NCBI GenBank assembly: GCA_902777125.1
Contig: CACYSQ010000014.1
Location: forward strand, 1 to 50,455
Length of the DNA: 50,455 nt
DNA from: Ruminococcus flavefaciens
GTDB lineage: Bacteria > Bacillota > Clostridia > Oscillospirales > Ruminococcaceae
Reading direction: 5' to 3'
Below are positions 6,587 to 50,182 of this stretch, in pieces. The translations under genes were made by a program, and so were the position numbers. How positions within the stretch are numbered: the first letter of the stretch is position 1; every line of letters begins with the position of its first letter. The notes below the pieces were generated by a model, which was not told the origin of the DNA, did no database searches, and saw nothing but the letters and a program-made list of their open reading frames with translations.

Positions 6587-6636
6587 CATCATGCGTTATA
6601 ATAGAAATGTTGGCAAAGCTTATATGAAACTGTGCC

Positions 6637-6798
6637 GATAGCTCTCCACCATACGCAATGATGACAGCCGCATACCTTTTTGATATACAGCCAGAACGGA
6701 ATTTACCGGAGACCGTCCTTCGGCGGCATCGCCTTTCACCGTACATCACCGGACTGGTCGTCCTCAGTACGCTTACTTTTCTTTGCCGCACCTCTACC
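6637..6798 (-). promoter_or_regulatory. Lysine riboswitch (L-box) aptamer
   Basis: The minus strand carries the L-box conserved blocks in order: GGTAGAGGTGCGG, AGTAAGCGT, GGTGAAAGGCGATGCCGCCG then AAGG, TTCTGGCTG, GCGGCTGTCATC and GGAGAGCTATC. P1 is closed by GGTAG with CTATC. The aptamer binds lysine; with the hairpin just downstream it should switch off asd, dapA and dapB when lysine is plentiful. Confidence 0.93.
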
Positions 6799-6806
6799 TT
6801 GTTTAC

Positions 6807-39019: not shown

Positions 39020-40420
39020 ATGGTTTTCTCAAGGTTATTCTTCATATACATCTTTCTGCCCGTATGCCTTCTTGTGTATGCGGCGGCGAGAGGAATTAAA
39101 CAAAAAAATACGGTGTTGATCATTTTCTCACTGATATTCTACGCATGGGGCGAGCCGGCTTTCGTCCTGCTCATGCTGCTCAGCGCTTTCGTCAATTACT
39201 CTGCGGGTCTGCTCATCGAAAAGCACCGCGGTAAAAAAGGCGATACCGCTGCAACGGCTTTTGCCGTCGTGTTCGACGTCCTCATGCTCGGAGTATTCAA
39301 GTACAGCGGCTTTATCGTGGAAAATGTCAACGCCCTTTTTTCGTTGTCGATACCGGTCCCGCACATAAGACTGCCCATCGGCATCAGCTTCTACACCTTC
39401 CAGACCATTTCCTACATTATCGACTGCCACTGGGAAAAGGTCGATACTCAGAAGAGCTTCAAGAATTATCTGCTCTATCTCGCGCTTTTCCCGCAGCTCG
39501 TTGCCGGACCTATCGTCCGCTACAGCACCATTGAGAAGGAGATAACCGACCGTAAGGTCGCCGTTTCCGATATCGCATACGGTCTCAACCGTATAGCGCT
39601 CGGTCTCGGAAAGAAGGTGCTCCTCGCGAATCAGCTCAGCATCATCGTCGGCAATACCCTTGGCAGCATATCAACTGCCTCCGTGCTCGGCGCATGGTAC
39701 GGTGCGGCAGTCTACGGATTGCAGATATACTTCGATTTCTCGGGCTATTCCGATATCGCTATCGGCCTCGGAAGGCTCTTCGGCTTCCACTTTGACGAGA
39801 ACTTCCGCCACCCGTTCGTCTGCAAGGACATCACGGAGTTCTGGCAGCGCTGGCACATCTCCCTCAGCACCTTCTTCCGCGATTACGTCCTCTATGTGCC
39901 GATATTCGGCAAGCGCAGAAAGTACGGCGGACTTTTCCTCGTATGGCTCTGCACGGGCATATGGCACGGTGCAAGCTGGAATTTCGTTCTGTGGGGACTT
40001 TACTACGGCGTGTTCGTCTGCCTCGAAATGATCATCGGCAAGAAGCGCATGAAGAAGATACCGGTCGTGATACGGCATATCTACAGCAAGGCTGTCATCA
40101 TCGTGGGCTTCGGAATATTCTACTTCGAGAAGCTCGGCGAGCTCGGAACTTTCTTCAAGCGGATCGTCGGCGTTGGTACATCTGAGCTCATCGGTTTGCA
40201 GGACAAGATAACCCTCACGAACAATATGTACCTGCTTATCGCGGCGGTAATATGCACGTTCCCGATAATCGACGGCATAAAGAAGCTCTCGGACAGGAGC
40301 TTTGCAGCCAAAAGCGCCGTCAGCTCCCTCACGGCACTCTGCTCGGCAGCACTTCTGCTGCTTTCGAGCATAATGCTCGTTGATGCGACTACCAATCCAT
40401 TCCTATATTTCAGATTTTAA
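39020..40420 (+). CDS. MBOAT O-acyltransferase (DltB/AlgI-like)
   Basis: A 466-residue multi-pass membrane enzyme of the MBOAT family. Key stretches: LPIGISFYTFQTISYIIDCH, FPQLVAGPIVRYS, FSGYSDIAIGLGRLFGFHF, DITEFWQRWHISLSTFFRDY and TGIWHGASWNF with the active-site His316. Such proteins move an acyl group from an intracellular donor through the membrane to an outer acceptor polymer. The closest role models are AlgI (alginate acetylation) and DltB (D-alanylation). It heads a tight operon with a DHHW protein, FkbH enzyme, carrier protein and phosphoesterase, which suggests a carrier-protein donor as in DltB. Confidence 0.93.
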   Translation: MVFSRLFFIYIFLPVCLLVYAAARGIKQKNTVLIIFSLIFYAWGEPAFVLLMLLSAFVNYSAGLLIEKHRGKKGDTAATAFAVVFDVLMLGVFKYSGFIVENVNALFSLSIPVPHIRLPIGISFYTFQTISYIIDCHWEKVDTQKSFKNYLLYLALFPQLVAGPIVRYSTIEKEITDRKVAVSDIAYGLNRIALGLGKKVLLANQLSIIVGNTLGSISTASVLGAWYGAAVYGLQIYFDFSGYSDIAIGLGRLFGFHFDENFRHPFVCKDITEFWQRWHISLSTFFRDYVLYVPIFGKRRKYGGLFLVWLCTGIWHGASWNFVLWGLYYGVFVCLEMIIGKKRMKKIPVVIRHIYSKAVIIVGFGIFYFEKLGELGTFFKRIVGVGTSELIGLQDKITLTNNMYLLIAAVICTFPIIDGIKKLSDRSFAAKSAVSSLTALCSAALLLLSSIMLVDATTNPFLYFRF

Positions 40421-40432
40421 AGAGGTCAGCAA

Positions 40433-42136
40433 ATGAGTTACAATACTGCTGCCGCAAAAAATACCGGCAGATCAAAGAATAAAAAGAGCAGCAACAAAAA
40501 AACAGATGAACGTCCGGCAATTTCCATAGAGGCTGAAAACCGGCAGGATACGAATATAGACGTTCCGGTAGAGCCTGCCGGTCAGGAGGATACCGGGAAG
40601 AAAAGAGCCGCGGTCTCCAACGTCATTTCCGCGTTCAATGCGATAATTGTCGGCGGAGTTCTCGCCTGCGGAGCGGTGTACATGACCTGCTTCAAGCACG
40701 AGACAAGGGCTGACGATGAGAACCGCTACCTTGCGAAATTCCCGGAATTTTCATTCAGCAGCTATCTGAAGGGGGACTACACATCCGCGATAGCCGAGTA
40801 TTTCGACGATACCGTTCACGGACGCTCTGAGATAAAGAGGTTCATTTCGGATAAGCTCCTTCCGCTCAAGGGCAGACCCTACGGCGGCGACGAGGAGGTC
40901 GAGCTCTACGGAACAGCCTTCGAGCATATCCCGCAGCAGACTGAGCCTCCGGTGATAACTACCGTTCCCGTGACCACTTCGCCCATTACAACATCTCTTC
41001 CTGCCGTGGTGACACCTGAGACCTCCGAAACGCCGGAGACCTCGGAGACACCGGAGACTTCTGAAACGCCCGAGACCTCCGAGACACCTGAGACCTCCGA
41101 AACTCCTCAGACCTCCGAAACTCCTCAGACCTCCGAGGCACCGAAAACATCAGAGGCGGAGAGAACTACGACTGCCGTTCAGACAACGGCTCCTCCCAAA
41201 ACGACTTCCGCTGTTGTGACAACAAAGGCTCCCGTAAAGGACGAATCGGAAGATGCGAACGGCGAGGTCACGAACAATATCCTCATCGTCAACAAGCGCG
41301 GTATCACGCTGTACGGCGGCGGCTGGGGCGGCGAGGTGACATACGCCTCCTACGTCAACGAGTACAAGGCGGCTCTCCCGAACGTCAATGTATGGTCGAT
41401 GCCTCTGCCAACGCCCTGCTCGTTCTATCTGCCGAACAAGTACAAGAACCTTGCCGCGAGCGAGAAGGCGGATTTCGACAATATGGCTGCACATTACAAC
41501 GGCGTGATCGGCGTTGACGCATGGACGGCTCTCAGCCAGCATACCGATGAGCCGATATACTCGCGCACAGACCACCACTGGCAGCCTCTCGGCGCTTACT
41601 ATGCCGCACAGGAATTCGCAAAGTCCGCAGGCGTTCCGTTTGACGATATATCGACCTATGACAAGGTCGTACTCCCGGGTTATGTGGGAACTCTCTACGG
41701 CTTCACAAAGAGCGCTACTCTCTGGAACAACCCGGAGGACTTCGTCTACTACAAGACAAGGAACAATGTCACTGTTACGCAGTACAGCACATCGTTCACC
41801 AATCCGTTCAGGACCTCGCTCTACCTCGACCCCACCAACTGGGACAGGTCGGCTTACTACCTCGTTTTCGGCATGGACGATAATATCCGCCATGTCAAGA
41901 CCGAGTGCAAGAACGGCAGAACGCTCATAATCTTCAAGGACAGCTACGGAAATGCACTCCTGCCCTTCCTCACTGGCTCGTTTGAGAACATCTACCTCTG
42001 CGATATACGCTACTTCAACATCAATCCGATACAGTTTGCGAAGAATGTCGGCGCAACGGACATACTTTTCTCGATGTGCTCATATTCCGCAGTAGGCGGC
42101 AACAAGTCGCATATCCACAACAATCTCTTAAAGTAA
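40433..42136 (+). CDS. DHHW/AlgX-like SGNH-fold acyltransfer protein
   Basis: A 567-residue type II membrane protein: charged cytoplasmic tail (1-65), transmembrane segment (AFNAIIVGGVLACGAVYM), the DHHW-family opening ENRYLAKFPEF and YFDDTVHGRSEIKRF, a Pro/Thr/Glu linker with about eight TPETSE hexapeptide repeats (41017-41150), and an SGNH-like catalytic part. This has RTDHHWQPLGAYYAA (Asp380, His381, His382) and FKDSYGNALLPF with the likely nucleophile Ser504. AlgX/AlgJ and DltD relatives do the last acyl transfer to the polymer outside the cell. It starts 12 bp after the MBOAT gene. Confidence 0.88.
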   Translation: MSYNTAAAKNTGRSKNKKSSNKKTDERPAISIEAENRQDTNIDVPVEPAGQEDTGKKRAAVSNVISAFNAIIVGGVLACGAVYMTCFKHETRADDENRYLAKFPEFSFSSYLKGDYTSAIAEYFDDTVHGRSEIKRFISDKLLPLKGRPYGGDEEVELYGTAFEHIPQQTEPPVITTVPVTTSPITTSLPAVVTPETSETPETSETPETSETPETSETPETSETPQTSETPQTSEAPKTSEAERTTTAVQTTAPPKTTSAVVTTKAPVKDESEDANGEVTNNILIVNKRGITLYGGGWGGEVTYASYVNEYKAALPNVNVWSMPLPTPCSFYLPNKYKNLAASEKADFDNMAAHYNGVIGVDAWTALSQHTDEPIYSRTDHHWQPLGAYYAAQEFAKSAGVPFDDISTYDKVVLPGYVGTLYGFTKSATLWNNPEDFVYYKTRNNVTVTQYSTSFTNPFRTSLYLDPTNWDRSAYYLVFGMDDNIRHVKTECKNGRTLIIFKDSYGNALLPFLTGSFENIYLCDIRYFNINPIQFAKNVGATDILFSMCSYSAVGGNKSHIHNNLLK

Positions 42137-42148
42137 GGAGGCGGCAAT

Positions 42149-43942
42149 TTGAAGGAACTCGTTTTTCCCTTTGACAGCAGGGCTATCCTCAGAAACAAGC
42201 GTGAGCTCAAAAAGGCTCTGCTCAATGACGGAACGGCTCGCATCAAGAAGAATATCGCCGTTCTCGGCGGCTCTACGGCAGACCATGTCGTTTCCATGCT
42301 GAGACTTTTCCTCCTCAACAACGGCATCGAGCCGCACTTCTACAAGTCGGAGTACAACAAGTTCTATGAGGACGCGGTCTTCGGCTCACCGGAGCTCGAG
42401 GCCTTCAAGCCGGACATAGTGTTCATACACACGACCTCCCGAAACCTCAGCCTTATGCCTGAGCGTGTCAATACCACCGCCGAGGAGGCTGAGCGGCTCC
42501 TTGACGAGCAGTTCGCAGTTTTCAGTCAGGTCTGGGAGGGCATAGATCAGCGCTTTGGCTGTCCGATAGTTCAGAACAATTTCGAGCTGCCGCTTTTCAG
42601 GAGGACCGGAAATTTCGACTGCTACAGTCCCTCCGGACAGGCAGCCTTCATAAACCGCATGAACGTGCGGCTCGCGGACTATGCCCGCACTCACAGTAAT
42701 TTCTACATCAACGATATCAACTACCTCTCGGCTGCGATAGGGCTTGAGAAATGGCATGATGCCGAGGCCTGGTACCTCTACAAGTACGCCATGAGCACCT
42801 CTGTCATTCCCGACCTCGCCTACAGTGCCGCCTGCATAATCAAGTCTATCTACGGCAGGAACCACAAGGTCATCGACCTTGACCTCGATAATACCCTTTG
42901 GGGAGGAGTTGTCGGCGATGACGGAGTTGACGGCATTGAGATAGGTCAGGAAACTCCCGTGGGACAGTCCTACAGCGAATTCCAGAGCTTCATCAGGGGC
43001 TACAAGGACTACGGCGTACTGCTCGCGGTATGCTCGAAGAATGACGAGGAGAATGCTCTTGCGGGACTCAGGCACCCTTGCAGCGTGCTCGGTCCGGACG
43101 ATTTTGTCTCGATAAAGGCTAACTGGGAGAGCAAGGACTCGAATATTCAGGCTTCCGCCGACGAGCTCGGACTTCTTGCGGACAGCTTTGTTTTCATTGA
43201 CGACAATCCGGCGGAATGCGCTATCATCGAGGCGCAGCTCCCGCAGGTACAGACGGTCTGCCTCACATCAGTAGGCGATGCGATGTACGCACTCAGCCGC
43301 GGCGGCTTCTTCGAGGTGACTTCGGTCTCCGAAGACGATCTGAAGCGCAGCCGTATGTATGCCGAGAATGCTCAGCGTGCAGCACAGCAGAAGAAGTTCA
43401 GCAGCTACAGCGATTACCTCGAAAGCCTCCAGATGTACGCGAAGATAACCGACTTTGAGCCGGTATACCGTCAGCGCATAACCCAGCTCACCAACAAGAG
43501 CAACCAGTTCAACCTCACCACGAAGCGCTTCACTGAAAGCGAGATCGAGGAGGTAAGCGGAAGTCCCGACCATATCAGGCTTTGCGGAAGGCTCACCGAT
43601 AAATTCGGCGACAACGGCATAGTTTCGATAGTCATTGCCCGCTGCGAGGGCGGCGACGCGCACATCGAGCTTTGGCTGATGAGCTGCCGCGTACTGAAAA
43701 GGGACATGGAGCTCGCAATGCTCGACGAGCTTGTGGCAAAGTGCCGTGAGCGCGGTATATCGCGGATATTCGGCTACTACTACAAGACACCCAAGAACTC
43801 TATGGTTGCAGGACTCTACGAGAGCTTCGGCTTTGAGCCCGTTGAAAAGAGCGAAAACGGCGACTCGGTATGGGTACTCCCGACTGAGGGCTACACAAAC
43901 AAAAACAAGGTAATACAAAAAGATAAAAGGAGCTATTCATAA
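42149..43942 (+). CDS. FkbH-like HAD phosphatase/acyltransferase
   Basis: A 597-residue protein of the HAD-IIIC/FkbH family. N-terminal SGNH-like region (1-230), the HAD nucleophile motif DLDNTLWGGVVGDDG (Asp245, Asp247, Thr249), FIDDNPAECAIIE, then a GNAT-like end with QLTNKSNQFNLTTKRF, LMSCRVLKRDME (Cys513) and YYKTPKNSMVAGLYESFGF. Known FkbH proteins take 1,3-bisphosphoglycerate, remove phosphate and load a glyceryl thioester on an acyl carrier protein, in methoxymalonate and tetronate pathways. The next gene is a carrier protein, overlapping by one base. No dehydrogenases of the methoxymalonyl route are present, so glyceryl itself may be the unit. Start is TTG with AAGGAGG. Confidence 0.9.
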   Translation: MKELVFPFDSRAILRNKRELKKALLNDGTARIKKNIAVLGGSTADHVVSMLRLFLLNNGIEPHFYKSEYNKFYEDAVFGSPELEAFKPDIVFIHTTSRNLSLMPERVNTTAEEAERLLDEQFAVFSQVWEGIDQRFGCPIVQNNFELPLFRRTGNFDCYSPSGQAAFINRMNVRLADYARTHSNFYINDINYLSAAIGLEKWHDAEAWYLYKYAMSTSVIPDLAYSAACIIKSIYGRNHKVIDLDLDNTLWGGVVGDDGVDGIEIGQETPVGQSYSEFQSFIRGYKDYGVLLAVCSKNDEENALAGLRHPCSVLGPDDFVSIKANWESKDSNIQASADELGLLADSFVFIDDNPAECAIIEAQLPQVQTVCLTSVGDAMYALSRGGFFEVTSVSEDDLKRSRMYAENAQRAAQQKKFSSYSDYLESLQMYAKITDFEPVYRQRITQLTNKSNQFNLTTKRFTESEIEEVSGSPDHIRLCGRLTDKFGDNGIVSIVIARCEGGDAHIELWLMSCRVLKRDMELAMLDELVAKCRERGISRIFGYYYKTPKNSMVAGLYESFGFEPVEKSENGDSVWVLPTEGYTNKNKVIQKDKRSYS

Positions 43943-44184
43943 TGAACAGGGAAGAAGTTATCAGAAGGCTCAACGAGGTCTTCCGTGACGTATTCGGCGA
44001 TGACAGCATAAGTGTCAGCGAGGAGACCACCTCCGCTGATATCGAGGACTGGGACAGCATTGAGCACATCAACCTCATCGGCTCTGTTGAGAGCGAATTC
44101 GGCATGAAATTCAAGATGCGCGAGGTCTCCGGCATGAAGAACGTCGGGGAAATGATAAGGATAATCTGTGAGCGCGGCTGCTGA
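43942..44184 (+). CDS. Acyl carrier protein
   Basis: An 80-residue carrier protein. The phosphopantetheine site is EDWDSIEHINLI with Ser39 in the DS motif; helix II and III follow (GSVESEFGMKFKMREVSGMKNVGEMI). It differs from fatty-acid ACP and looks like a dedicated DltC/FkbJ-like carrier. Its start overlaps the FkbH stop (TAATG), giving translational coupling; RBS AAAAGGAG lies within the FkbH end. Expected to carry the three-carbon unit to the MBOAT protein. Confidence 0.94.
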   Translation: MNREEVIRRLNEVFRDVFGDDSISVSEETTSADIEDWDSIEHINLIGSVESEFGMKFKMREVSGMKNVGEMIRIICERGC

Positions 44185-45019
44185 AAAGGACAAAAAACGC
44201 CGCAGATTTGTGGCATTCTGCCTTGTCCTCATGGTGACGGTAACGCTTTTTATAGCCGGTTATGAGCCGGAAACGGTGCATTACGGCGTTCACTCGGACA
44301 AGATAAACGGCAGCATAAAAATAGTTTTCGTTTCCGACCTGCACAACTGCATCTATGGCGGCAGGGACCAGTCGGCGCTGTTGGCGGACATCGACAGGGA
44401 AGAACCGGATATCGTCATTTTCGGCGGCGACGTTGTTGACGAATGGGGCTGCACAACAAATGCCCTTACAGTGATGCGTAAGGCGGCGGAAAAGTACCCG
44501 TGCTGCTACACTCCCGGAAATCATGAATATGAACGCAGTGACACCGAGGAATTCTTCCGCGACGCTGAAAAGACCGGCGTGAAGCTCCTCATGGGGGACT
44601 ATGCAGAGCTCGATATCAGGGGCAATTCCGTGAGGATATACGGCGCGGTCGATGCGTTCTACAAGGGACAGATGAAGGAATGCTTTGCGACCCTTGACGG
44701 CGGTTATTACAATATCCTCGTTGCCCACAAGCCCGAGCAGATAGACGATTACCTCCGCAGCGGCAGCACACGATTTGACCTCATACTCTCAGGCCACGCC
44801 CACGCGGGACAGTGGCGCATACCCGGACTGCTCGATCAGGGACTCTATGCCCCGGGACAGGGCGTTTTCCCCAAGCGCACCTGCGGTATGTACACCTACT
44901 GGGACACGGTGCATATCATCAGCCGCGGACTTGCAAAGCCGCTCAGAATGATATTCATACCGCGTATATTCAACCGGCCGGAGCTGTCGGTGATAGAGCT
45001 TTTGCCTGAAAATACATGA
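44168..45019 (+). CDS. Membrane-anchored metallophosphoesterase
   Basis: A 283-residue calcineurin-like phosphoesterase (YaeI/YkuE group). One N-terminal membrane segment (FCLVLMVTVTLFIAGYEP) precedes the metal-binding motifs VSDLHN, FGGDVVDEW, TPGNHEYE, and SGHAHAGQWRIP. GTG start, overlapping the carrier gene by 17 bases, so it belongs to the same operon. Related proteins act on lipids or peptidoglycan-linked substrates; here a role in polymer or lipid-carrier maturation is possible, not shown. Confidence 0.88.
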   Translation: MSAAAEKDKKRRRFVAFCLVLMVTVTLFIAGYEPETVHYGVHSDKINGSIKIVFVSDLHNCIYGGRDQSALLADIDREEPDIVIFGGDVVDEWGCTTNALTVMRKAAEKYPCCYTPGNHEYERSDTEEFFRDAEKTGVKLLMGDYAELDIRGNSVRIYGAVDAFYKGQMKECFATLDGGYYNILVAHKPEQIDDYLRSGSTRFDLILSGHAHAGQWRIPGLLDQGLYAPGQGVFPKRTCGMYTYWDTVHIISRGLAKPLRMIFIPRIFNRPELSVIELLPENT

Positions 45020-48478: not shown

Positions 48479-50182
48479 ATGCAGGACAGGGAACATTTCC
48501 ACAGAAAGCCGGATAATACCGACGATCAGGACACGATATGCTTCGAGCTGCCCGAAAGCGAGAGAAATACACAGCAGAACGGCTACTATCAGGGACAGTC
48601 CCAGTCCCCACAGCAGAGCGGCTACTATCAGGAACAGTCCCAGTCCCCGCAGCAGGGCGGCTACTATCAGCAGAGACAGTCCGCGTCCCCGCAGCAGGGC
48701 GGCTACTATCAGGGACAGTCCCAGTCCCCACAGCAGAGCGGCTATTATCAGAAGGGACATCCCCAGTCCCCACAGCAGAGCGGCTACTATCAGGGACAGT
48801 CCCAGTCCCCGCAGCAGGGCGGCTACTATCAGCAGAGACAGTCCTCGTCCCCGCAGCAGGGCGGCTATTATCAGCAGAGCCAGCCCTCGTCCCCGCAGCA
48901 GGGCGGCTATTATCAGGGACAGTCCCAGTCCCCACAGCAGGGCGGCTACTATCAGCAGAGACAGTCCTCGTCCCCGCAGCAGGGCGGCTACTATCAGGGA
49001 CAGTCCCAGTCCCCGCAGCAGGGCGGTTACTATCAGCAGGGACAGTCCGCACCTCCACCGCCTCCACCACCGCCGTCAGGAGGCTATTATCCGCCGCCTT
49101 ATCAGAGCCCGCGTCCGCCTAAAAAGAAGCTGAAAAAGAAAAAGCAGCCCGCAAGACAGGCGCACGTTCCGCAGCCGCCTGTCCATGAGACGGTCGTCAA
49201 GGTCAAGAAAAAGCACAGGAAGCCCCTTGTCTGGAAGATAATCCGCCGCGTCCTGCTCAGCCTCCTGAGCATCTTCCTCATACTTTTCGGCATCTATTCC
49301 TGCACCTCGCTGACGCTCATAAACAAGATGAACCTTGTCTCGACCGGTGAGCGTACCCGTACCGAGGACGCCCTCAGCCGGAAATACGTCAAAAGCGTCC
49401 TTATCATCGGCACTGACGGAAGATCCGATGTCGAAAGGGGACGTTCGGATTCGATGATACTTGTCTCCCTCAACAGCAAGACCAACAAGCTCACCATGAC
49501 ATCGTTCATGCGCGACTGCAATGTCGAGATACCGGGACATGGCTATAATAAGCTGAATGCGGCTTACTCATTCGGCGGTCCGGAGCTTCTCATGGACACC
49601 ATCGAGAAGAATTTCCGCGTTAAGATCGACAACTACATACAGATTAATTTCAGCACCTTCGCAAGCGTTATCGACGCGGCAGGCGGTGTTGACATCGAGA
49701 TGTCCGATGCGGAGGCTGAGGCGCTGAACGTCATACTCATTTCCGAGGTCAACGAACTTATGGGCGATGAGCGCGAGTCCGACCTCCTTGAGCACGGCGG
49801 AAAGCTCCACCTCAACGGCAAGCAGGCGCTTTCGTATTCGCGTATCAGGAACGTCGGAAACTACGATTTCGAGCGCACTAACCGGCAGCGAAAGGTCATA
49901 ACGGCACTGATAAAAAAGGCACGAAAGGGCGGTTTCTCATTCCTGAGAAAGATCACCAAGGGCGCATTGCCGTCAATGACGAGCAATATGTCGAAGTGGG
50001 AACTCTACAAGCTCTCGCTGAGGCTGCCGTTTGTTATCCGCTACAAGACACAGCAGATACAGATACCGGCGGACGGAACGTTCACGGACGACCCGAACAA
50101 TCCGAACGGCTGGGTAATAGAGATAACCGATTACGATGCGAACTATGAGCTGATAAAGAAAGAGGTATTCAGCAAGAAGTAA
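48479..50182 (+). CDS. LytR-CpsA-Psr (LCP) family wall-polymer ligase with Q/Y-rich tail
   Basis: A 567-residue type II membrane protein. The cytoplasmic N-terminal half has twelve GYYQ repeats of 13-14 residues (GYYQGQSQSPQQ type, residues about 36-190), a polyproline patch and a very basic stretch (PKKKLKKKKQ). A transmembrane segment (LLSLLSIFLILFGIYS) leads to an LCP domain: SVLIIGTDGRSDVERGRSDS, MTSFMRDCNVEIPGHGYNKL, AAGGVDIEM and ALSYSRIRN, with the Arg and Asp residues that bind the polyprenyl pyrophosphate head. LCP proteins attach secondary wall polymers to peptidoglycan. RBS AAGGAG. It may act on the polymer modified by the MBOAT cluster upstream, an inference from position. Confidence 0.93.
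   Translation: MQDREHFHRKPDNTDDQDTICFELPESERNTQQNGYYQGQSQSPQQSGYYQEQSQSPQQGGYYQQRQSASPQQGGYYQGQSQSPQQSGYYQKGHPQSPQQSGYYQGQSQSPQQGGYYQQRQSSSPQQGGYYQQSQPSSPQQGGYYQGQSQSPQQGGYYQQRQSSSPQQGGYYQGQSQSPQQGGYYQQGQSAPPPPPPPPSGGYYPPPYQSPRPPKKKLKKKKQPARQAHVPQPPVHETVVKVKKKHRKPLVWKIIRRVLLSLLSIFLILFGIYSCTSLTLINKMNLVSTGERTRTEDALSRKYVKSVLIIGTDGRSDVERGRSDSMILVSLNSKTNKLTMTSFMRDCNVEIPGHGYNKLNAAYSFGGPELLMDTIEKNFRVKIDNYIQINFSTFASVIDAAGGVDIEMSDAEAEALNVILISEVNELMGDERESDLLEHGGKLHLNGKQALSYSRIRNVGNYDFERTNRQRKVITALIKKARKGGFSFLRKITKGALPSMTSNMSKWELYKLSLRLPFVIRYKTQQIQIPADGTFTDDPNNPNGWVIEITDYDANYELIKKEVFSKK
48576..49070 (+). repeat. Tandem repeat DNA inside the LCP gene
   Basis: About twelve units of 39-42 bp built on CAGCAGGGCGGCTACTATCAG with GGACAGTCCCAGTCCCC or CAGAGACAGTCCTCGTCCCC. 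Units are nearly identical at DNA level, so copy number should vary by slippage; each unit is a multiple of 3, keeping the frame. Other frames are open across the array, which is a by-product of repetition. Confidence 0.9.

Follow-up and report, generated by a model that had tools for sequence, protein, structure and literature searches.

The window analysed here is a stretch of 50,455 nucleotides of Ruminococcus flavefaciens (contig CACYSQ010000014.1), and this report concerns an operon of five packed genes in it, all on the + strand between positions 39020 and 45019, encoding a membrane O-acyltransferase (MBOAT), a DHHW protein of the SGNH/AlgX type, an FkbH-like protein, an acyl carrier protein (ACP) and a metallophosphoesterase (MPE). 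We conclude that the operon probably encodes a carrier-protein-dependent MBOAT-SGNH pathway for surface acylation, in which FkbH replaces the loading enzyme DltA of the Dlt system and glyceryl would be the cargo delivered to an outer polymer. The initial annotation, which was made from the sequence alone, had described five packed genes of which the last three overlap, and this description was confirmed. The intergenic spacing is 12 nt between MBOAT and DHHW, 12 nt between DHHW and FkbH, -1 nt between FkbH and ACP and -17 nt between ACP and MPE. Gene families were assigned with Pfam and NCBIfam (NCBIfam hits at E 0.001).

The association of FkbH with one particular clade of MBOATs was found in two samples, i.e. 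a draw of 99 genomes of relatives and an order-wide draw of 295 genomes, using the MBOAT of the operon as the query and Fisher 2x2 tables built from the FkbH and MBOAT match lists. Among the relatives, an MBOAT match of at least 54% identity (at least 555 bits) was present in 33 of the 99 genomes, the best match elsewhere being at 48% (443 bits), and all 33 of these genomes were among the 40 that have an FkbH match (Fisher p 9e-20, shared ancestry ignored). Seven genomes have FkbH without the clade MBOAT: a contig end truncates the locus in G027, G051 and G054, G098 has a divergent linked MBOAT, and the FkbHs of G012, G067 and G094 are distant (29-34% identity). In the order-wide draw FkbH was over the cut-off in 57 of the 295 genomes, and the 30 nearest MBOATs (at least 51% identity) were found, 30 out of 30, within these 57 genomes; the next 30 listed MBOAT matches came from 28 genomes, one of which (G556) has FkbH (Fisher p 1e-25).

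In a tree of 59 MBOATs (one of them, L240, a 309-aa fragment) these 30 sequences, from five families, lay on one side of a single branch with a Shimodaira-Hasegawa-like approximate likelihood ratio (SH-aLRT) support of 100. The eight rows adjoining this clade belong to genomes without an FkbH match, and the 29 rows outside it include five paralogues from FkbH genomes (L162, L163, L291, L293, L294). In ten genomes, namely eight of genus g298, G493 and G640, no MBOAT lies within 5 kb of FkbH, the locus of one (G518) being truncated by the end of its contig. Each of the ten encodes an MBOAT of 51-58% identity, which lies on a different contig except in G559, a genome of a single contig, where it is 1.7 Mb away. 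A second tree, in which the outgroup consisted of selected type B and N rows only, placed all ten unlinked MBOATs in the clade of type A MBOATs (40 rows, support 100/99), type A being the gene order of the operon, MBOAT-DHHW-FkbH-ACP. A DHHW gene lies directly behind the unlinked MBOAT in seven of the ten (not in L281-L283). As the clade MBOAT accompanies FkbH even when the genes lie apart, the tie between them is more than one of neighbourhood.

The host genome contains one FkbH match, four MBOATs over the cut-off and no DltA over the cut-off, the best match to the DltA model TIGR01734 scoring 99.2 bits against a cut-off of 559.85. The suggestion of the initial annotation that FkbH takes the place of DltA is borne out by this absence and by the way in which FkbH-ACP follows one MBOAT clade across genomes, and FkbH as the loader, in place of DltA, of a carrier-dependent MBOAT-SGNH pathway is therefore well supported.

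The arrangement is also conserved within the genus. MBOAT, DHHW, FkbH and ACP were found on one contig and in the same order in 25 fetched loci of other same-genus genomes, the contig ending within the MBOAT in L047, L050 and L071 and FkbH being a 198-aa C-terminal piece in L039, and this conserved order indicates that the arrangement did not arise by chance. A search for the same order in other Ruminococcus genomes had been proposed at the outset, and these loci confirm it for four of the five genes. The MPE, which is calcineurin-type and predicted to be membrane-anchored (44168-45019, + strand; PF00149, 3.3e-14; 62.5 bits against the YaeI model, where 188 are needed), lies 3' of ACP in 22 of the 25 loci but is missing from L046, L048 and L070, nor was it detected in two loci from other families, L033 and L034. 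In L212 it is still beside MBOAT and DHHW where the locus lacks FkbH and ACP. We therefore rejected a five-gene core: the four genes MBOAT-DHHW-FkbH-ACP of the proposed module stand, with the MPE as an optional addition next to them in the genus.

The MBOAT gene (39020-40420, + strand; PF03062, 3.2e-27) has DltB (TIGR04091) as its nearest curated model, at 157 bits under a cut-off of 375, and its sequence matches in the PDB at E 0.01 are DltB chains only (8jem and 6bug, E about 3e-26). The protein ends in the hexapeptide FLYFRF (40400-40417, + strand), an example of the FxYxxF acyl-shuttle peptide whose motif and mechanism are described for PatA and DltX (PMC12148441; here and below, papers are cited from excerpts). 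A C-terminal FxYxxF was present in 39 of 39 type A MBOATs, 39 of 49 type B MBOATs (described below) and 21 of 24 MBOATs without a linked FkbH; five of these 24 (L212-L216) belong to the type A clade but are cut or unlinked. As the motif occurs both with and without a linked FkbH, it marks the mechanism and not the donor. The conserved His motifs WHG and RWHIxL were found in all 39 type A MBOATs. These counts cover the 112 MBOATs of 430-619 aa, which were thinned at 85% identity to the 94 rows of the corresponding tree; L047 was typed B in the counts though its order is MBOAT-DHHW-FkbH-ACP and the trees place it in the type A clade, and in the 94-row tree L213-L216, whose FkbH lies on a separate contig that is cut, carry the new label X and L212 the new label T. 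The operon MBOAT is predicted to take an acyl group from ACP and to move it across the membrane. The operon is Dlt-like, as initially annotated, in its combination of MBOAT, carrier and SGNH protein, but its MBOAT is not DltB by the curated model and has a shuttle peptide of its own.

The DHHW gene (40433-42136, + strand; PF14286, 3e-38; PF16822, 4.3e-07) encodes a predicted N-terminal membrane anchor helix, a low-complexity linker rich in Ser, Thr and Pro, and an SGNH/AlgX-type transferase domain. The linker is encoded by TSETPE-type repeats (41022-41180), and relatives differ in its length and sequence. The predicted model of the protein has a mean predicted local distance difference test (pLDDT) score of 70.6, with values below 50 at residues 1-53 and 142-269, and is well ordered from about residue 280. 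When it was compared with known structures, the template modelling (TM) scores, by target length, were 0.91 for 4nzk, 0.75-0.78 for PatB1 (5v8d/5v8e), 0.52 for AlgJ and 0.33-0.36 for AlgX, and a profile search with the protein returned the same structures. Among SGNH structures that have been characterised, PatB1 came closest in these comparisons. Asp380 and His382 of the DHHW motif (41570-41578, + strand), which are predicted to belong to the catalytic triad, are present in 17 of 17 rows of alignment A2 and align with the DHHW of PatB1; the predicted nucleophile Ser504, in KDSYGNA (41942-41944, + strand), is present in at least 90% of the 17 rows and aligns with KDSFANA of PatB1. The initial DHHW/AlgX-like call agrees with both the fold match to PatB1, AlgJ and AlgX and the conservation of the triad residues. 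The best match, 4nzk (EUBSIR_00411, 1.49 A, titled as a DHHW family protein of Eubacterium siraeum), is identical at 342 of 342 compared residues to a DHHW protein of G559, whose gene (L253:10680-11834) stands in a locus of the order DHHW-DHHW-FkbH-ACP.

The FkbH-like gene (42149-43942, + strand) matches PF21211 (4e-13), TIGR01686 (262.7 bits, cut-off 146.65) and TIGR01681, and its product comprises FkbH_N, HAD-IIIC phosphatase and C-terminal GNAT-like domains. The predicted model (mean pLDDT 85.3) matches 3slr (BF1531) and GNAT folds, and BF1531 is the sole PDB sequence match at E 0.01. We compared the protein with four short reference FkbHs (L044, L172, L178, L263) that adjoin acyl-CoA and 3-hydroxyacyl-CoA dehydrogenases, these being assigned by Pfam in L172 and L178 and by models built from those in L044 and L263. 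Thirty-five positions of the operon FkbH were identical in all four and in at least 97% of the 122 long FkbHs collected; they include Asp245, Asp247, Thr249, Ser296, Lys329, Asp351, Asp352 and Cys513. In the HAD motif I, DLDNT (42881-42895, + strand), Asp245, Asp247 and Thr249 are identical in the four dehydrogenase-linked FkbHs and in 100% (rounded) of the 122 others. Cys513, in the MSCRV motif of the GNAT-like domain (43685-43687, + strand), is invariant in alignments A1 (10 rows) and A3 (24 rows), and is a candidate acyl tether or catalytic Cys. The Cys of a CSKN motif was rejected as the catalytic residue because it varies among relatives (ASKN, NSKN, VSKN), unlike that of MSCRV. Enzyme work on OzmB and RkD reportedly underlies the view that FkbH-like proteins load glyceryl. 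By analogy with the biochemistry of the family, which includes the FkbH-like glyceryl loaders FkbH, Mad7 and Mad14 of methoxymalonate and tetronate clusters (PMC7489565, excerpt), the operon FkbH is a predicted glyceryl loader.

The ACP (43942-44184, + strand) is a stand-alone protein of 80 aa with a PF00550 score of 21.3 bits (cut-off 20.8), and its best PDB match is 2lml (GmACP3; E 2.8e-15). Its predicted phosphopantetheine site is Ser39 (44056-44058, + strand), in WDSIEH. Among 122 collected ACPs WDS was found in 120 and WDSxx[HN] in 112, and we take WDSxxH/N to be the signature of GmACP3-type ACPs.

To see these genes in a wider setting, we scanned genome contigs for FkbH relatives, and the counts given here refer to the best 80 of 586. 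An ACP lay within 5 kb in 73 of the 80 loci, and an MBOAT on the same strand lay at this distance or less in 60; in the 47 loci with both flanks of at least 5 kb the numbers were 44 and 34. The record titles are mainly metagenome-assembled genomes (MAGs) labelled Lachnospiraceae, Oscillospiraceae, Ruminococcus or Clostridia, with many rumen and gut isolate names. Two arrangements were seen, type A (15 of the 80) and type B, which is mostly FkbH-ACP-MBOAT. Cultured carriers include Eubacterium siraeum, in which the MBOAT is unlinked, and Eisenbergiella tayi, which is of type B. In type B a motif GGS, GSS or GDS, picked out by eye, is frequent in the gene 3' of the MBOAT, but three such proteins gave no Pfam hits, and assigning them an SGNH role is no more than guesswork. 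Type A and type B MBOATs formed distinct lineages in the tree, which suggests that FkbH-ACP has been joined to MBOATs more than once. In the order-wide sample, 37 of the 65 FkbH loci had a same-strand MBOAT within 5 kb (18 in type A order), a further nine had only a DHHW gene, and 46 had an ACP. An MBOAT or DHHW gene was thus within 5 kb of FkbH in 46 of the 65. In the phylum draw FkbH was over the cut-off in 14 of 398 genomes, and the loci other than L175 and L177 look polyketide, sugar or flagellar, mostly with ACP (judged by eye; L168, L172 and L178 by Pfam). The association of FkbH with MBOAT is common in the host's order, not across the phylum. We lean, by a small margin, towards a general reading in which FkbH is mainly an envelope enzyme in this order, glyceryl being drawn directly from 1,3-bisphosphoglycerate without ATP and passing via ACP, the MBOAT clade and a PatB1-like DHHW protein to form a glycerate ester on the wall.

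For the operon itself, the family memberships suggest the following sequence of steps. FkbH would bind 1,3-bisphosphoglycerate, its HAD domain would strip the 3-phosphate, and D-glyceryl would be handed, perhaps via Cys513, to the phosphopantetheine thiol of ACP. As the glycolytic acyl phosphate would pay for this, an ATP-dependent ligase would be unnecessary. The MBOAT would then take glyceryl from ACP on the inner side of the membrane and pass it to Tyr463 of its own FLYFRF peptide, from which the DHHW protein would accept it on Ser504 for transfer to a hydroxyl of an outer polymer. Candidates for the acceptor pathway in the genome include five sulfatase-family matches (LtaS family), three of which share contig C15 with one TagB/TagF-type match; these and the LytR-CpsA-Psr gene near the operon are suggestive at most as hints to the acceptor.

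A variant that we consider possible but rather unlikely is that the route through ACP, MBOAT and DHHW is correct but that the cargo is not plain glyceryl, the product being reduced, dehydrated, methylated or lengthened, or another acyl phosphate being used. Extra enzymes encoded within 5 kb and on the same strand in 28 of the best 80 loci speak for such a change and against glyceryl as a universal end product: MaoC-like proteins (18), short-chain dehydrogenases/reductases (SDRs; 11), transketolase halves (10 and 10), glyoxalase-fold proteins (7) and aldo/keto reductases (4), all grouped by blastp with one member of each family checked by Pfam. The cargo therefore need not end as glyceryl, and the counts suggest that other family members change the carried group further. 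However, the type A loci, 15 among the best 80 and 18 in the order sample, contained none of these enzymes, and the motifs of the operon FkbH match those of dehydrogenase-linked FkbHs. Much less probable is an arrangement in which FkbH and ACP serve an unrelated cytosolic pathway (a natural product, a lipid or sugar N-acylation) while MBOAT and DHHW O-acetylate a polymer from acetyl-CoA, their adjacency being chance. MBOAT-DHHW pairs without FkbH do exist, also in the same genome, and FkbH serves polyketides elsewhere, but chance adjacency is at odds with the co-occurrence of one MBOAT clade with FkbH, even apart, and with the presence of FkbH-ACP beside different MBOAT lineages. That the operon is an ordinary D-alanylating Dlt system or makes methoxymalonyl-ACP is very improbable indeed, although MBOAT, SGNH protein and carrier occur together in Dlt, and FkbH and ACP in methoxymalonate operons. 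Canonical Dlt was rejected on the curated cut-offs for DltA and DltB given above, and neither the ACP nor the DHHW protein hit a DltC or DltD model of NCBIfam. A methoxymalonate or tetronate operon was rejected as the operon encodes neither dehydrogenase nor FabH nor polyketide synthase, and no dehydrogenase or methyltransferase gene lies between its five genes. The initial annotation had remarked on the missing methoxymalonate dehydrogenases: neither the acyl-CoA nor the 3-hydroxyacyl-CoA dehydrogenase is among the operon genes or within 5 kb of the operon FkbH, and the pair was found beside two of the 65 FkbH loci of the order sample (L044 and L263).

Several further observations weigh against the glyceryl pathway that we favour. 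The assignment of the FkbH substrate is drawn from the family, the order-wide MBOAT threshold was set after inspection of the list, and neither p value takes shared ancestry into account. G001 (79% complete) has MBOAT-DHHW-MPE before RlmB, i.e. in the same place, without FkbH and ACP, and its ACP-FkbH pair is on another contig, with an FkbH that is only 53% identical. The type A locus of G006 (L039) has the 198-aa FkbH piece beside an intact-looking MBOAT and ACP, and its full-length FkbH (49%) is at L037, beside another MBOAT. Two of the three other MBOATs of the host genome have DHHW partners, with no FkbH or ACP among the neighbouring genes listed, so that MBOAT-DHHW pairs exist without an FkbH loader. 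In the order sample 28 of the 65 loci have no same-strand MBOAT within 5 kb, 19 have no ACP, and L235 and L252 have neither MBOAT nor ACP. Two of the 14 FkbH loci of the phylum draw (L175 and L177, with the R. flavefaciens locus excluded) have an MBOAT among the genes listed.

A number of FkbH loci differ from that of the operon in composition. In the type B clusters L091:2039-5069, L090:10797-12979, L134 and L098, transketolase halves, an aldo/keto reductase, a MaoC-like dehydratase or an SDR are nearby and the cargo is probably rebuilt; we would guess at pyruvyl or lactyl made from glyceryl, or at a lengthened chain, as examples. The type B MBOATs of L115, L149, L153, L154, L157 and L136 end in FIYARI (FIYASI in L136), not in FxYxxF, and are followed by a 200-aa HAD-family gene that is not SGNH-like. 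In L264, L267, L268 and L271 an MBOAT is followed by a short FkbH (341-413 aa, 26-28% identical), and in L264 and L267 the gene between the two carries a polysaccharide deacetylase domain (Pfam). In L168 (G101) FkbH and ACP are near FliS and CheW genes (Pfam) and transketolase halves, and this is a possible cluster for a glyceroyl-type flagellin glycan. FkbH loci of the same subfamily occur in MAGs labelled Alphaproteobacteria (L112), Treponema (L155) and Synergistaceae (L111), reflecting either horizontal spread or mis-binned contigs.

Around the operon, an NfeD/SPFH pair lies 540 nt away on the 5' side, and RlmB, an 866-aa open reading frame (ORF) without a Pfam hit and the LytR-CpsA-Psr protein follow on the 3' side. 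The gene for the last of these (48479-50182) is 3.5 kb 3' of the operon and encodes a long N-terminal part with QSPQQGGYYQ repeats. A scan for promoters and terminators gave nothing firm. The window also contains a lysine riboswitch (6631-6804, - strand, 109 bits). Elsewhere in the host genome (G000), an AMP-ligase gene with a small carrier-like ORF (L165, 4862-9539), the best DltA-like match, was considered as an alternative loader and set aside because a ketosynthase gene is near and no MBOAT was found in the fetched stretch; it shares contig C15 with the sulfatase-family and TagB/TagF-type matches located there.

The predicted pathway shares features with several known systems. Like Dlt (DltA, DltB, DltC, DltD and DltX), it has a carrier thioester donor, an MBOAT, an outside SGNH transferase and an FxYxxF peptide (PMC12148441, excerpt), but the loader is FkbH (HAD plus GNAT-like) where Dlt uses the ATP-dependent DltA, the MBOAT carries the shuttle peptide as a fusion in place of the microprotein DltX, and the SGNH partner is a PatB1/AlgJ-like DHHW protein. 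PatA-PatB, PatA1-PatB1 and AlgI-AlgJ-AlgX resemble it in having an MBOAT with a fused hexapeptide and an SGNH partner of the same fold; these systems are described in the same excerpt without a carrier, as users of acyl-CoA, as are MBOAT-SGNH machines apart from Dlt in general, whereas the operon module has ACP and FkbH. With the methoxymalonate and tetronate loaders the operon shares an FkbH beside a stand-alone ACP and common HAD and GNAT motifs, but a membrane acyltransferase is the partner in place of dehydrogenases, FabH or polyketide synthase. GmACP3, the closest solved match of the ACP, is a Geobacter protein with a rigid phosphopantetheine arm (PMC4847154, excerpt), for which a role in lipopolysaccharide (LPS) synthesis is proposed in the title of Ramelot 2011. 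AlmEFG of V. cholerae follows a Dlt-like logic with a carrier protein, as the operon does (PMC3783018, excerpt), but puts glycine on LPS via an LPLAT-type enzyme, with no MBOAT and no FkbH.

FkbH chemistry is expected to give D-glycerate, and gellan, which carries L-glycerate, is therefore no direct parallel. Gellan is an exopolysaccharide on which glyceryl is known (Kuo 1986, as cited in an excerpt of PMC4432689), and N-glyceroyl pseudaminic acid is known in Tannerella forsythia, where the candidate gene "remains elusive" (PMC6120980, excerpt). Among the titles and abstract beginnings covered, which mostly did not extend to subscription journals, we found no paper joining FkbH to an MBOAT-SGNH surface pathway.

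MBOAT-SGNH machines decorate the envelope polymers of many bacteria. If the pathway proposed here is correct, FkbH-loaded glyceryl would be a third class of donor for such machines, after acyl-CoA and aminoacyl carrier, and the pathway would be a second carrier-dependent branch, one that draws its energy from a glycolytic acyl phosphate and so ties surface decoration to glycolytic flux. The same kind of loader could supply the missing glyceroyl donor elsewhere, e.g. for the pseudaminic acid of Tannerella, and in gut and rumen Clostridia the product would be a new surface modification consisting of uncharged, hydrophilic glycerate esters.

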